Below are positions 30,120-37,617 of a stretch of 57,750 nucleotides of DNA, piece after piece; the stretch's first letter is position 1; each line of letters begins with the position of its first letter. Position numbers and translations under genes: made by a program. The stretch comes from an archaeon (lineage in GTDB: Archaea; Nanobdellota; Nanobdellia; Woesearchaeales; GW2011-AR4). The notes under the pieces were generated by a model. The model saw only the letters and a list, made by a program, of their open reading frames with translations, was not told where the DNA came from and ran no database searches. The stretch spans positions 6,242-63,991 of the forward strand of contig NZEC01000002.1 in assembly GCA_002688925.1 (NCBI GenBank), read 5' to 3'.

Positions 30120-30227
30120 ATGGATAGAATGGCAAAATTAATTTGGGCAAGAAATCAGGTTTTTGCTACTCAAGAAGAAATTGATGGATACAATGAAGTG
30201 GCTCTCAAAATATCCAGATGGGAATAA
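30120..30227 (+). CDS. 35-residue ORF at the left end of the element
   Basis: The frame is open from 30069 and reads in a protein-like way (L-R-Y-K-K-E-Y-P-D-Y-D-K-E-E, then the ATG at 30120 and D-R-M-A-K-L-I-W-A-R). It stops 10 bp inside the next gene, which suggests coupling. The absence of a start codon for the upstream part suggests it may be the surviving C-terminus of a longer gene cut at the attachment site. Confidence 0.35.
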   Translation: MDRMAKLIWARNQVFATQEEIDGYNEVALKISRWE

Positions 30228-30832
30228 TTAAATCAATATTAATTAAGTTAGTTAGGTTTATTAGGTTTTGGGATAGGGAAAATATAGGGAAAATAGAATC
30301 TATATTTGCAATTGACAAAAGGTATAACATTAATAAAACTGATGATGATAGTTTGGAATCACTGCCACAAGACTTCGGAGAATTTTTTGGAGATTTTTTT
30401 GGAGATTTTTTTGGAAATGGAGCATTTACTTATTTTGATTTATTTAAGGAATGGAAGGGTTCAATAATTAAAATATGGTTGCCAAAAAGTGAACTTAGGA
30501 CAAATTATTTTCTAAAAAGTCCAGATAATTTTATACCCTGTATGGAATTATTTATAGATAAAGTTGAAACTATTGCATTAAGATATCTCTCTGTTAAGGA
30601 TTTGAATCTTAATTTCATTAATACAGATGAAATCAAGGATATAGTTTATCCAAAAGAAAAAAATGGAAAGAAGTATAAGGATTTCTTTGATTTTGCGTGT
30701 GATTATTTCCTTGTATGGCCAAATAAAAATACATCTGGTGTAATAATTGAATTAAAAATTACTGACAAAGAAGAATTTGATAATTTTCCGGGTAGAATAA
30801 TATCCAAGTCAAAAAGGGATAGAGAACTTTAG
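30218..30832 (+). CDS. Hypothetical protein with FFGD repeat
   Basis: A 204-residue protein not recognised from any family. A basic amphipathic N-terminus (I-K-S-I-L-I-K-L-V-R-F-I-R-F) is followed by an acidic stretch and three copies of G-[ED]-F-F encoded by a 12-bp DNA repeat (30377-30412). The C-terminal half is alpha/beta in character. It begins at an ATG overlapping the small upstream ORF. Base composition is extremely AT-rich, as elsewhere in the element. Confidence 0.55.
   Translation: MGIIKSILIKLVRFIRFWDRENIGKIESIFAIDKRYNINKTDDDSLESLPQDFGEFFGDFFGDFFGNGAFTYFDLFKEWKGSIIKIWLPKSELRTNYFLKSPDNFIPCMELFIDKVETIALRYLSVKDLNLNFINTDEIKDIVYPKEKNGKKYKDFFDFACDYFLVWPNKNTSGVIIELKITDKEEFDNFPGRIISKSKRDREL
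30377..30412 (+). repeat. Triple 12-bp repeat inside the gene
   Basis: Three consecutive 12-bp units of the form GGAGA(A/T)TTTTTT encode G-E/D-F-F three times. The in-frame unit length allows expansion or contraction by slippage without a frameshift. Confidence 0.85.
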
Positions 30833-31899: not shown

Positions 31900-32086
31900 A
31901 GGATTGGCATAATCACGCAAGATTGTTTAATGGTGGAAAGATGAATCTAAAAAGAACAAATTTACTTCATTGAATGAAATAGAAGAAGAAATTAAGAAAA
32001 CAGATAAGGAAATTAATGAACTTGTTTACAAATTATATAACATAACAGAAGAGGAAAAAAAGATAATAGAAGAAAGTTTAAAATAA
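31900..32086 (+). pseudogene. 3' remnant of a type II restriction-methylase gene
   Basis: The 354-bp gap between 31790 and 32145 contains decayed coding sequence. One frame reads D-W-H-N-H-A-R-L-F-N. After a frame change it continues W-K-D-E-S-K-K-N-K-F-T-S-L-N-E-I-E and ends K-T-D-K-E-I-N-E-L-V-Y-K-L-Y-N-I-T-E-E-E, followed shortly by a TAA at 32084-32086. The D-W-H-N block and the D-K-E-I-x-x-L-V-Y-x-L-Y-x-[LI]-T-E-E-E ending are the C-terminal signature of Eco57I/TaqI-like adenine methylase-endonucleases. Only this tail survives, with at least one frameshift. The bases before 31900 show no clear coding content. Confidence 0.7.
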
Positions 32087-32144: not shown

Positions 32145-32846
32145 TTAATAATAAAAATCAAAATTATTTTTTTTGAATGCATCCTGTAAAGGTTTTAATA
32201 TAATTTCCTTAATGATAGAGTAAGTCATGTCAAATTTATCCCTTTCCAAGCCCCAGCTTTTTTCATCATTGTTTTTAAGTTGTGGGCTCAAATCTGGCTG
32301 GACACTCTTAAATGCCTGAGAAACTTTAAACTTAATGATTTTATCATAAGGAGATTCTTCTGTAAAATCATGTCTTAATTCTGTAGAATTGTTCTGGTCT
32401 GATTCAGTCAAGCTGAATAATTCCATATAATTTTTTTTATCATTCATCAATATTGATAATGATGCTGGATCAAGGTCATCAATATAATTATCATCACTTT
32501 CTCCCTCTATTTTAACTACTTCTACCTTTTCTTCAATTGGCTTTCTCAAATATTCACCTACGAATCCATTGAATTTACTAAAGGAACCATCACCATGTTT
32601 TATCATTCTTGCTACAAAATAGCCACCTTCCCTATAATCAGGACTTTCAAAATCCAGTAATGAACCATCAGTTTCATTTTTTGTTTTGTAAACTTCAGTT
32701 ATAAGATCTTTATTTTTACTATTAGAATATATTTTTTCATCTCCTACTTTGACAAAGTTTTTCCCAACCCTAAATTCTGCATTTATTTCTTTTACAGCTT
32801 TTTCTATTAATAATTCAAAGTCCGATTTTACGTATAAAAATGCCAT
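32145..32846 (-). CDS. Hypothetical protein, last gene of the element's minus-strand operon
   Basis: A 233-residue soluble, acidic protein with no motif I recognise. It has a mixed alpha/beta N-terminal half (F-L-Y-V-K-S-D-F-E-L-L-I-E-K) and an acidic linker (residues 110-130). It starts 21 bp after the stop of the 32868-33488 gene and belongs to the same transcription unit. Confidence 0.55.
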   Translation of the reverse strand: MAFLYVKSDFELLIEKAVKEINAEFRVGKNFVKVGDEKIYSNSKNKDLITEVYKTKNETDGSLLDFESPDYREGGYFVARMIKHGDGSFSKFNGFVGEYLRKPIEEKVEVVKIEGESDDNYIDDLDPASLSILMNDKKNYMELFSLTESDQNNSTELRHDFTEESPYDKIIKFKVSQAFKSVQPDLSPQLKNNDEKSWGLERDKFDMTYSIIKEIILKPLQDAFKKNNFDFYY

Positions 32847-32867
32847 TTTATTTTGTTTGATTTTTCA

Positions 32868-33488
32868 TTATTTTTTGCTTGGTTTAAAATTAAGCAGTTC
32901 AAGTATTGCTCTTTCTGTCTGTTTCGGGCTCATGTTATCCCGCTCTAAAACAAATCCTTCAACACCATCTTGTTGATATAATTTTGTGTCTTCAGAATCT
33001 CTTAATATCCTAAGTGCGTGAAGTATAAACTCCTCGGATGCCCGTATACTAAAATCAAATACATTTTTTTCTCCGCTTATATCTACACTGTAAAGATTAT
33101 CAGGTGATTCAAACACTACGAATTCATGACCGCATCTTAAGTCTTCTACTCTTTTAACCAATGCCTCTGTTTTTATGGTATATTCATCATTTTTCCAACT
33201 TACTTCTTTAGAATTATAGGAGAATTCATCTCGTCCCCTTTCAGCATATTCTTCTCTTGTTTGTGGACTTCTTATGCACCTAAGATAATCTATATCATTT
33301 TTACTGTCAGGAAATCCATATGTCCTAAATAATCTGATAATCTCGCTATCATCCTCAAGAAATTTATTTTTAAGATGAAAATTATTTTCTCTTAGGGTTG
33401 AATCTAGTGATTTCCCAAAATCTGTATAAGGCTGGATAATTTTGCTTTTATCAAATCCCTCTGGTAATTTTAAGTATTCTTTTGCCAT
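32868..33488 (-). CDS. Hypothetical protein, probable paralogue of the next upstream gene
   Basis: A 206-residue protein. Its start (P-Y-T-D-F-G-K-S-L-D-S-T-L-R-E-N) aligns with that of 33495-34088 (P-F-T-E-F-A-K-I-L-D-N-T-L-K-D-K). Both continue with a short W-x-N turn and a cluster of beta strands at similar distances, so they are likely diverged duplicates of one unknown family. The two genes are 6 bp apart. No catalytic motif is evident. Confidence 0.55.
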   Translation of the reverse strand: MAKEYLKLPEGFDKSKIIQPYTDFGKSLDSTLRENNFHLKNKFLEDDSEIIRLFRTYGFPDSKNDIDYLRCIRSPQTREEYAERGRDEFSYNSKEVSWKNDEYTIKTEALVKRVEDLRCGHEFVVFESPDNLYSVDISGEKNVFDFSIRASEEFILHALRILRDSEDTKLYQQDGVEGFVLERDNMSPKQTERAILELLNFKPSKK

Positions 33489-33494
33489 TTTTCA

Positions 33495-34088
33495 TCATTT
33501 CCTTGTATAAGTTGCTATGTCTATAATTTTGCTGATTATATTTTCTATGTCATAGGTTTTAGAGCGGTAATTTAGCTCTCCTTTTTCTTCAATTTTTTTT
33601 GATTTGGTTCCAAGTGTATTTATTACATGTTTTGAATATTTTTTGTCTTCCAAATTACCCCCTACTTGGAAACTCCATCTTGGGTGTATATAAAAATCCA
33701 CGCGGTCTGCCAGGTTAGAATGCGAAATTGCTACCTTTTCCCAGCCTTCGTCATGCTTCAATGTAGATAGAACAAGGTCATTTTGAATTTTTGGCATTCC
33801 ATTTATCCAAGTTATATGTTCCGGATAAATATAACCTGTAGAAGTTGAGCCATCATCTTGAATATGAATTCCCTTGGTATAAATAAGTGAACCATACCTA
33901 TAAGAATCTTTATAATTCCTGCTTATGAATATTTCTTTTTCTTTTTTATCAAAAGGAACATACTCTCTGCTTTGTAAATCAAAGCGCTTATCTTTCAGCG
34001 TATTATCTAATATTTTTGCAAATTCTGTAAATGGCCAAGGTTTTACTTCATTGTTTGGCATTATTATTGTTTCTTCTTTTTGTTGCAT
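33495..34088 (-). CDS. Hypothetical protein, probable paralogue of the next downstream gene
   Basis: A 197-residue protein sharing the N-terminal P-[FY]-T-[ED]-F-x-K-x-L-D-x-T-L block and overall layout with 32868-33488. The first nine residues before M10 are polar and may be an extension: an internal ATG begins M-P-N-N-E. It starts 18 bp after the stop of the regulator gene 34107-34814. Function unknown. Confidence 0.55.
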   Translation of the reverse strand: MQQKEETIIMPNNEVKPWPFTEFAKILDNTLKDKRFDLQSREYVPFDKKEKEIFISRNYKDSYRYGSLIYTKGIHIQDDGSTSTGYIYPEHITWINGMPKIQNDLVLSTLKHDEGWEKVAISHSNLADRVDFYIHPRWSFQVGGNLEDKKYSKHVINTLGTKSKKIEEKGELNYRSKTYDIENIISKIIDIATYTRK

Positions 34089-34106
34089 TTATATCACCTA
34101 ATATTT

Positions 34107-34814
34107 TTATTGATTATTTCTCCCTTTCTTTTTCTTTTCTTCCAGCTTCATCTCATTCTTTATCCTTTCCAGCATATTCCCGAGTATGTTGAATGTTTTC
34201 TGGCTGTCCTTTTCATAAACATAAACATTCATTTCTGTTCCGCAGCTGAATGTACTCACGACATTAATCTTGTTTATTGTAATTTCATTCAGCAATACTG
34301 AGTTCATGCCGTACTGCTTGTATGCCTCTTTTGGCACTATAATGGAAATCTCGCACAGATCCTTTTCAATATCAAGAATCCTCTCGGAAAATGCATGCCT
34401 TACCTTTTCCAGGTTGCCTTCATCAACAAGTATTGTAAGTATGTTCTGCCCTTTGATTACCCTGAATGTATCTCCCCCGTAAATCTCGAGTGTCTTTAGG
34501 CTCCTGTTTATGAGCTCGAGTGACGCATCCCCTTTCTTAAAAGAAACTCTTACCACTCCGCTTTTTAAATGTATTTTTGAATCTTTTAGCACGCCGTATA
34601 CCGGCTTGTTTATGTCTTTAATCTCAGAAAAATCTGTATCGCACCTTCTTATTGCCGTCCTGACTGATTCAAGGCTAAGGTTCTTGTCCGGATTGGTCTT
34701 GATAATATATGCAGCTAGGGCTCTTGGAGTTATTAGATTTCTTGACAATCCCTGCATAATCACTCCATCTCGGTTCACGGTTTCATGTATGAACTGGGTC
34801 AGGTTTGCTATCAT
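34107..34814 (-). CDS. HTH plus ACT-like domain regulator, first gene of the element operon
   Basis: A 235-residue protein. The first 65 residues look like a winged helix (R-A-L-A-A-Y-I-I-K, then S-L-E-S-V-R-T-A-I-R-R-C as recognition helix). The rest has two beta-alpha-beta units. The last (L-N-E-I-T-I-N-K-I-N-V-V-S-T-F-S-C-G-T-E) resembles an ACT-type ligand-binding domain. Related proteins appear to be common in DPANN genomes. A TATA box (34834-34845) gives a leaderless start, and palindromes on both sides of it suggest autoregulation. It may act as the element's control switch. Confidence 0.6.
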   Translation of the reverse strand: MIANLTQFIHETVNRDGVIMQGLSRNLITPRALAAYIIKTNPDKNLSLESVRTAIRRCDTDFSEIKDINKPVYGVLKDSKIHLKSGVVRVSFKKGDASLELINRSLKTLEIYGGDTFRVIKGQNILTILVDEGNLEKVRHAFSERILDIEKDLCEISIIVPKEAYKQYGMNSVLLNEITINKINVVSTFSCGTEMNVYVYEKDSQKTFNILGNMLERIKNEMKLEEKKKKGRNNQ

Positions 34815-34816
34815 AC

Positions 34817-34875
34817 GGGTCAGAATAACCCAGCCATATATAAACCTTTCTATAATTTAACTACTTTTAAGTAGT
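34817..34875. promoter_or_regulatory. Control region with two palindromes around the TATA box
   Basis: On the regulator side GGGTCAGAATAACCC (34817-34831, stem GGGT/ACCC) lies between TATA and the start codon. Upstream of TATA, ACTACTTTTAAGTAGT (34860-34875) is a perfect 7-bp inverted repeat around TT. These are good operator candidates for the HTH/ACT protein. The remaining gap to 35075 holds the opposite promoter (GGATATATTATAAAC, about 35051-35065) and otherwise nothing I recognise. Confidence 0.5.
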
Positions 34876-35074
34876 TTCATTCAATTTACATTCAATTTTG
34901 TTGAAAATCAGGCTAAACACATCCATAAAACAATCTTTCTGACCTGAAAACCATGCTTTTGGTACACAGATATAAGTATTCCAGACGGTATTCTTGCCAT
35001 TGGTGATTAAAAATGACATACAGATGCAATACAAAATATGGAATTAGGCTTGGATATATTATAAACACAGGGGG

Positions 35075-35455
35075 ATGAAAATGAACAACAAACAGGTAAA
35101 AATGACATTAATGGATATATTTGGCCAGTATGTTGCTGGCCTGTATAATGGAAGAGAAGCAGCTGTGGCAATAGATAGCGCCCTTCATGGGCTGACAGGA
35201 TTAAGGTACAAGAATGCCAGCTGTTTGTCTGTCGATGACGGCCAGGACAGATACAGCCTGAGTGTAGCCGGATTAAGCAAAAAGCAGAAGAAAAAGGTAG
35301 AAAATGATTTAGTTCCGGCAATGCACATTTTAAGGACACAGCACGGCCAGGGCAATGGAACTGAAGCCCATATAAGCAACAGCTGCTCAACAAAACATTA
35401 TAGGGGCAATTTTGAATATTTGGTAAACAGGGTGTCAATGCAATATGGAATGTGA
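35075..35455 (+). CDS. Hypothetical protein of the element
   Basis: A 126-residue protein with helix-rich N-terminal half (L-M-D-I-F-G-Q-Y-V-A-G-L-Y-N-G-R) and a C-terminal region rich in H, N, S and C (T-E-A-H-I-S-N-S-C-S-T-K-H-Y-R-G-N). It is less AT-rich than its neighbours, which may indicate a different origin. It has its own TATA box and a GGGGGATG Shine-Dalgarno region. Its stop overlaps the next gene's alternative GTG, so the two are translationally linked. Confidence 0.5.
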   Translation: MKMNNKQVKMTLMDIFGQYVAGLYNGREAAVAIDSALHGLTGLRYKNASCLSVDDGQDRYSLSVAGLSKKQKKKVENDLVPAMHILRTQHGQGNGTEAHISNSCSTKHYRGNFEYLVNRVSMQYGM

Positions 35456-35460
35456 TAAAG

Positions 35461-35691
35461 ATGATGAAAAGGACTCTTATAGTAAGGCTGACAAAGAATC
35501 AGCATGAACGGGTTAAGAATAATGCAGAGTCCAAAGGCTACAAAACAATTTCTTCTTACATAAGATCATTGGCTCTGGAGCATGATTTAGGCTTTGTAAA
35601 AAAATTTGATGAAATATATACAAAGCTTATTGATAGAAGTTCTGATAAGGCTGAAAGTAAGGATGAGATTAAGCTGACTAGGTTTTTGTAA
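35461..35691 (+). CDS. Ribbon-helix-helix DNA-binding protein (MobC/CopG-like)
   Basis: A 76-residue protein beginning K-R-T-L-I-V-R-L-T-K-N-Q, a ribbon strand, followed by two helices (H-E-R-V-K-N-N-A-E-S-K-G-Y and T-I-S-S-Y-I-R-S-L-A-L). This matches ribbon-helix-helix proteins such as MobC-type relaxosome or CopG-type copy-control factors. The frame could start at a GTG at 35452 overlapping the preceding stop. It may control element copy number or excision. Confidence 0.7.
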   Translation: MMKRTLIVRLTKNQHERVKNNAESKGYKTISSYIRSLALEHDLGFVKKFDEIYTKLIDRSSDKAESKDEIKLTRFL

Positions 35692-36222: not shown

Positions 36223-37482
36223 TCACCCAGAAAGCTTTACTAATTCTTTTTCCATTTTTTCTTCTCGCACCATGTCAACTGCATCATTAAGCTTGCCTTT
36301 CTTGACAAGGCCTTTGATTATTTTATGTATCAGCTCATCCTTTTTGTCTTTATCTTCAATCTGCTTTTGCAATTCTTCCAACTGCTCTTTCTGCTTTTCT
36401 ATCTCCTTGTTAATAATCTTATTTTCTAATTTTGTCTTTTCAAACTCTGTTTTAAATTTTGCAATTTCATGGTCTTTGGTCTGCCCTGCAATTTCATCAT
36501 CATCAACAGCATGAAAATACCTTTGAGCAGTTCCTGACTTTAAATTCCAACCATACCTGCTGCAAAACTGTGCATAGGTCTTTATGATGCTTGCATAATA
36601 AGTTGCAGAACTGTGCCTCATTGTATGTAATGAGATATCTTTATTCAAAACTTTTTTAGCATTATCCTTGATTGTTTCGAGCATCGTATGATAATTGGTT
36701 TCAAAAATAAAATTATTTTCATCAAAATTATCTCCCAACCTCTGCTTTTCAGAATTCTTAAAATTATCAATTAGATCTGTTGCCAGCCATAAGCTAACCC
36801 ATCTTTCTTTTTTTGTCTTTGATGTTTCTTTCCTGACATGAGCCTTATAATAACCCCTGTCCTCTGGCTTTGCAACATCAACCCATCTCAGATTAGCAAA
36901 CTCCTCTGCCCTAAAACCGCCATCAAACAATGCCATAATATAGGTCTTAACCCTTAATGCAGAAGCGGATAATACCATCTTCTCTACTTCAGACCTTGTT
37001 AAAAATATCTTTGTTGGACTTTCCTCTGTAGTATCCCATGAATCACAAAAAGGAGGATAGTATTTATTTTCTCCAAATTTCCATTTCAAGAATTTCCTGA
37101 CAGTTTTATAATTTTTAGCTTTAGCTGATGGTTTATACTTATTGCCATAAGCATTAATTATAACATCATTTTCCATATTCTCATAGAAATCATCCCAATC
37201 CTTTTGGGTAGTTTTGTCAAAATCCTTGTTTATCCATTCATTTGAAAGCATACGCATTAGTCCCATTACCCTGTATAATGTGCTTTTAACAACTTTCTTG
37301 TTTTTATTTCCGCTTTTAGCTTTCCCCAGCCTACACGCTTTAAGATAATCAAGAACTATTAGCCTGTTATTATCATGTTTCCAAGTCTCATTGGCTTCTA
37401 ATTCATGAATAGCCTTATCTGATTCATATTCTAGGTTATGGAAGTCTCTTTTACCATTAGAAGCATAGTTTATCTTTGCCAT
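36223..37482 (-). CDS. int: Tyrosine recombinase (integrase) of the element
   Basis: About 419 residues. An N-terminal core-binding SAM-like domain (about 25-140) is followed by the catalytic domain with R (G-G-F-R-A-E-E-F-A-N-L-R), a lysine in the beta hairpin, H-T-M-R-H (H and second R) and the nucleophile Y in A-Q-R-Y-F-H. Residues after the tyrosine form a long K/E-rich coiled coil of about 80 residues, unusual for integrases. The frame extends to an ATG at 37503, but a TATA box (37504-37513) is 26 bp before the ATG at 37482, so I prefer that start (M-A-K-I-N-Y). It lies immediately beside its target tRNA. Confidence 0.93.
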   Translation of the reverse strand: MAKINYASNGKRDFHNLEYESDKAIHELEANETWKHDNNRLIVLDYLKACRLGKAKSGNKNKKVVKSTLYRVMGLMRMLSNEWINKDFDKTTQKDWDDFYENMENDVIINAYGNKYKPSAKAKNYKTVRKFLKWKFGENKYYPPFCDSWDTTEESPTKIFLTRSEVEKMVLSASALRVKTYIMALFDGGFRAEEFANLRWVDVAKPEDRGYYKAHVRKETSKTKKERWVSLWLATDLIDNFKNSEKQRLGDNFDENNFIFETNYHTMLETIKDNAKKVLNKDISLHTMRHSSATYYASIIKTYAQFCSRYGWNLKSGTAQRYFHAVDDDEIAGQTKDHEIAKFKTEFEKTKLENKIINKEIEKQKEQLEELQKQIEDKDKKDELIHKIIKGLVKKGKLNDAVDMVREEKMEKELVKLSG

Positions 37483-37503
37483 GTATGGCTGAAAGTGTGA
37501 CAT

Positions 37504-37543: not shown

Positions 37544-37556
37544 ATAGCCCCGCCAA
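37544..37556. repeat. Right attachment core within tRNA-Gln
   Basis: ATAGCCCCGCCAA, identical to 30033-30045. It spans the tRNA discriminator base, the 3' acceptor strand and part of the T stem, so integration reconstitutes a complete tRNA. Confidence 0.85.
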
Positions 37557-37617
37557 GATTCGAACTTGGGTCACAAACTCCAGAGGCTTGTATGATTGGC
37601 CGCTACACTACGGGGCT
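37545..37617 (-). tRNA. tRNA-Gln (anticodon CTG)
   Basis: Read on the minus strand, the 7-bp acceptor stem AGCCCCG/CGGGGCT closes a standard cloverleaf. The D arm has AGCGG, the anticodon stem is CAAGC/GTTTG with loop CTCTGGA (anticodon CTG), and the T arm is CCAAG-TTCGAAT-CTTGG. A follows as discriminator and CCA is not encoded. No intron is seen. It is the integration target of the element and lies between the integrase and eS1. Confidence 0.95.

Follow-up and report, generated by a model that had tools for sequence, protein, structure and literature searches.

Four closely spaced genes on what looks like a mobile element of an archaeon raise the question of whether they form a functional module in their own right or an operon assembled from parts of different origin. 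The locus lies in a 57,750-nt stretch of DNA, here called the window, from a genome whose 20 contigs total 864,511 bases (85% complete). The account that we prefer, tentatively and with a confidence somewhat short of even, is that the cassette is accessory cargo, probably of the defence or addiction type, carried by a small integrated element associated with tRNA-Gln in a Woesearchaeales-type archaeon, and that it stands behind a copied ACT regulator. In the order in which they follow one another, the genes of the cassette are:

34107..34814, minus strand: head gene, 235 aa, with an HTH-like N-terminus and an ACT region; putative copy of a chromosomal regulator family
33495..34088, minus strand: gene B, 197 aa, a near-orphan with the N-terminal motif PWPFT-x-F-x(3)-LD
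32868..33488, minus strand: gene C, 206 aa, remote paralogue of B in its N-terminal half
32145..32846, minus strand: gene D, 233 aa, an orphan with no detectable relation to B or C

The four genes are co-directional and are separated by 18, 6 and 21 bp. In a hexamer coding model built from the host genes of the window, the annotated frame of all four ORFs scores positive (0.44–0.73) and the other five frames negative. ORFs, spacing and coding signal confirm the four genes with gaps of 6–21 bp that a sequence-only reading had described. A Shine-Dalgarno sequence is clear at B (AGGTGATATAAATG), weak at C and absent at D. To judge from the packing, the four genes are likely transcribed as one from a TATA promoter at about 34840.

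The surroundings of the cassette are those of an integrated element, which bears out the mobile location given in the same reading. On the regulator side of the cassette lie:

35075..35455, plus strand: backbone gene, 126 aa, of which a 70% identical copy lies beside NikA and integrase genes of another genome (L064)
35452..35691, plus strand: NikA-like ribbon-helix-helix (RHH) protein, Pfam PF21983
35752..36180, plus strand: metallopeptidase-like small protein; hydrophobic segment at the N-terminus, HExxH motif (HELYH, read from the sequence)
36223..37503, minus strand: tyrosine integrase that retains R198, H293-x-x-R296 and Y329
37545..37617, minus strand: tRNA-Gln(CTG), at the edge of the element; its place beside rps3ae is conserved in two relatives

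A tyrosine integrase that retains its catalytic residues thus adjoins a tRNA gene, the arrangement expected of a tRNA-associated integrative element, with the NikA-like RHH protein alongside. The backbone recurs elsewhere: L064 has the 126-aa gene together with a NikA-like gene and an integrase, L062 has NikA and the C-terminus of an integrase, and NikA relatives are found in 14 other genomes. The small protein between NikA and the integrase matched no family. A search of the window for a second copy of the tRNA end, which could serve as direct repeat of an attachment site at the other border, gave none within 3 mismatches. The left end of the element is therefore provisional, and the element is described here as tRNA-associated and not as delimited; the second site may be decayed or lie elsewhere. 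A separate ORF on the plus strand, 30218–30832, contains three tandem 12-base units at 30374–30418 that give a GDFF-type repeat in the protein, and has no family match.

The head gene belongs to a family with members in 45 of the 59 genomes searched, at up to four copies per genome, and the source genome carries three further copies. Identity to chromosomal members is 21–30%, and the homology is nearly full-length (E down to 1.2e-28 over residues 2–214). Among 24 family members, 20 matched ACT_7 in Pfam, eleven DUF7523 and eight ACT (best ACT_7 match 1.9e-07), and the family profile matches aspartokinase ACT domains among solved structures (1.3e-05). By itself, the window protein gives weak matches, among them one to the C-terminus of aspartate kinase, and its domain call leans on the family. 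Of the original description as an HTH/ACT-like regulator, the ACT part is thereby upheld, and the N-terminal HTH is suggested by the family alignment, not by a family match. Chromosomal members adjoin varied housekeeping genes, and B, C and D are absent downstream of them in the neighbourhoods examined. Literature searches for DUF7523 and for HTH-ACT regulators of archaea returned nothing on this family. Within our tentative account, the head gene would have been captured or duplicated from the regulator family of the host.

Upstream of the head gene are two features that could bear on its control:

34836..34850, minus strand: TATA/BRE-like promoter of the regulator, read from the sequence, about 22 bp upstream of the ATG
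34859..34876, no strand: perfect 18-bp palindrome AACTACTTTTAAGTAGTT a short way upstream of the promoter, a possible operator

The promoter had been taken to be autoregulated. The palindrome points that way, as weak evidence of an operator, because comparable inverted repeats (arms of at least 8 bp) occur in 5 of 32 upstream regions of homologues; as strong evidence of autoregulation it was rejected, equal palindromes being common in that position. The promoter arrangement of the family counts against the claim, in that a strict pattern search did not find it upstream of the window head gene. This arrangement, TGACA/TGGCA followed by a TATA box and GACA, is seen upstream of the chromosomal ACT regulators L016, L017, L025, L027, L031, L032, L036, L040 and L042. 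In its strict form (TGACA-TATA-GACA) it is present in 9 of 32 homologues, compared with 1 of 294 control upstream regions; it marks a subset of the family and is not needed for membership. Judged from these sequences, it is likely an operator of the chromosomal ACT regulators, and as such it offers a testable site in part of a family that we did not find described in the literature searched.

Genes B and C, which had been called probable paralogues, are remote paralogues, in the N-terminal half only. They share a 23-residue N-terminal stretch (E 2e-4), and their local alignment (z = 6) has a score reached by none of 500 shuffles. Gene D was considered as a third paralogue and rejected, no pair with D exceeding all shuffles. 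The only convincing relative of B is a 150-aa gene (L010/L075) flanked by pyrF and pyrB in a Woesearchaeota genome with the isolate name LacPavin; B aligns with this gene at z = 22 and C at z = 11, both above all of 500 shuffles. A possible C-terminal continuation of L010 in another frame showed no similarity, and no mobile or defence gene was seen near L010 on its 8-kb contig. Further convincing members of the B/C family were not found in 288 genomes of the order searched with B, 288 searched with C or 371 genomes of the phylum searched with a joint profile. Searches of 288 and 167 genomes gave no convincing relative of D; a match in 1 of 288 genomes, to a 170-aa protein encoded near nop5 (E 2.3e-4), was judged to be due to chance.

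Nothing usable came from B, C and D against Pfam, PHROGs, NCBIfam and PADLOC, or from the B/C profile and D against PDB sequences, and no known anti-phage defence family was matched by any of the three (PADLOC, Pfam, NCBIfam). An AlphaFold model of B reached a pLDDT of 60, and that of C, at 41, was unusable. Matches of the B model were treated as uninformative, both in Foldseek (best E 0.028, RnlA chains, TM about 0.2) and in VIA (best Z 6.5, bilin reductases). The searches and models used thus gave no confident fold or sequence family for B, C or D. Nor do B and C form a recurrent gene pair of the toxin-antitoxin kind, their pairing being confined to the window among the genomes searched. In viral contigs, including IMG/VR, relatives were found neither for B, C or D nor for the 126-aa gene or the integrase; plasmid records gave none of B or C, and phage records none of B or D. 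These results weigh on the idea that the element is virus- or plasmid-like and degraded, with B, C and D as its structural or replication proteins and no host-directed cargo function for them. The integrase with its catalytic residues in place, the NikA-like RHH protein and a low GC3 common to B–D and the element ORFs e1–e4 argue for this idea, which we nevertheless consider unlikely, as B–D have no PHROG family, no match among phage records or IMG/VR contigs with the methods applied, and no recognised replication or capsid gene beside them.

Base composition divides the cassette. GC3 is 0.458 in the head gene and 0.457 in the divergent backbone gene (35075–35455), and 0.22–0.25 in B–D; the mean of host genes is 0.344 (sd 0.044), and e1–e4 share the low values of B–D. 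This suggests that the regulator and B–D are of different origin and that the operon looks assembled. Recurrence of the cassette elsewhere had been set beforehand as a test of the module, and the outcome was negative, with no second copy in 167–371 genomes per search. The break in GC3 and this lack of recurrence together suggest that B–D were joined to a regulator that originated elsewhere. The proposed functional module is supported in part: its gene order, regulator type, paralogy and mobile location are borne out, and it fails in recurrence, with no second copy and with chromosomal relatives without B–D. A stronger version, in which all four genes have co-evolved into a single new module for defence, replication or stability under its ACT regulator, would explain the tight packing (18, 6 and 21 bp) and suits an element type known to carry restriction-modification (R-M), Abi or toxin-antitoxin (TA)-like genes. 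It is distinctly improbable, given that the unit did not recur in the genomes searched, that relatives of the regulator are without B–D and the relative of B stands alone, and that composition breaks between regulator and B–D. At the other extreme, an ordinary chromosomal-type ACT regulator could by chance precede a recently inserted string of three orphan genes, without functional linkage. The composition break and a regulator family normally without B–D are in keeping with such chance neighbours; the shared strand, the 18-bp gap and the good Shine-Dalgarno of B suggest read-through from the regulator promoter, and we regard mere juxtaposition as very unlikely.

What remains of our preferred account, the nature of the cargo, is argued from the company that the cassette keeps. 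One piece of this company lies next to gene D:

31928..32086, plus strand: remnant of a type IIG restriction enzyme-methyltransferase, a decayed C-terminal stub that converges with gene D

The stub ends 58 bp from the end of D and matches positions 1026–1063 of a 1066-position profile (2.7e-6), behind several stops. Four other NikA neighbourhoods carry R-M, AbiGi or MNT/HEPN-like genes, all of known families. In L062 (L062:814-7719) there are a PD-(D/E)XK nuclease, DpnI and DpnII with a methyltransferase, and an MNT/HEPN-like pair, in L122 type I R-M genes, and in L124 an MNT/HEPN-like pair; L127 (L127:285-4657) has AbiGi between NikA and integrase beside tRNA-Glu. L127 matches the window element in architecture, and the cargo position is occupied by a known abortive-infection gene. 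A fifth neighbourhood, L125, has a Fic gene with reverse transcriptase pieces. By eye, no defence genes were seen in the NikA neighbourhoods L119, L120, L123, L126 and L128. In ten control neighbourhoods, none of 71 proteins matched R-M, Abi or TA models at 1e-10, a comparison that is uneven in that these proteins were unselected and those on the NikA side hand-picked. Control proteins matched only PD-T4-6 and viperin models, which were read as generic kinases and radical-SAM proteins.

Because related NikA elements are loaded with R-M, Abi or TA-like genes and the remains of an R-M enzyme lie beside D, a role of B–D in defence or addiction is our likeliest guess, made by company and not by sequence. 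Of the original suggestion of defence, replication or stability, defence or stability fits the cargo of related elements, and B, C and D themselves match no known family. Against the cargo account stand the want of a family or confident fold for B–D and the fact that the sole relative of B is a lone chromosomal gene in a pyr operon. The missing repeat of the tRNA end, the hand-picking on the NikA side of the comparison and the NikA neighbourhoods in which no defence gene was seen count against it as well. The course of events might have been that a host HTH-ACT regulator was captured or duplicated onto the element and that the lineage-specific genes B, C and D then came to lie behind the copy. 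The ACT protein would respond to a small ligand, an amino acid or the like, and control the TATA promoter, and B and C, possibly with D, would provide a defence- or addiction-type accessory function, the weakest step of the proposal. A bolder version, that B and C (with D) constitute an undescribed DPANN defence or addiction system under an amino-acid-sensing ACT regulator, such that protection is tied to nutritional state, is a long shot. If the cargo account is true, small NikA/integrase elements are a place to seek new DPANN immune or addiction genes, and B and C are a candidate pair with almost no relatives.

Several known systems resemble parts of this arrangement. Closest to the head gene are the chromosomal HTH-ACT regulators of Woesearchaeales (ACT_7/DUF7523-like, with an aspartokinase-type ACT), which likewise begin with an HTH-like motif and continue with an ACT region; unlike the head gene, they are without B–D behind them, and 9 of 32 have the strict TGACA-TATA-GACA promoter. 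Lrp/FFRP regulators, too, join an HTH to an ACT-like ligand-binding fold. In contrast to the archaeal members of that group (PMC2995911), the head gene has no Lrp/AsnC family match, and its ACT region resembles that of aspartokinase; among them, Sa-Lrp is reported to bind its own control region (PMC3584215). Tailed proviruses of Woesearchaeales, reported with defence systems that include DISARM and Dnd genes (PMC11705971), are like the window element in being integrated, in belonging to the same order and in their defence cargo. They differ in that this cargo is unrelated, and the window element is without a recognised capsid or tail gene. The elements L062, L122, L124 and L127 carry cargo of known families (R-M, AbiGi, MNT/HEPN-like), to which B, C and D do not belong, and share with the window element the NikA-like RHH protein in all four, the tyrosine integrase in L062 and L127, and the tRNA gene beside it in L127.
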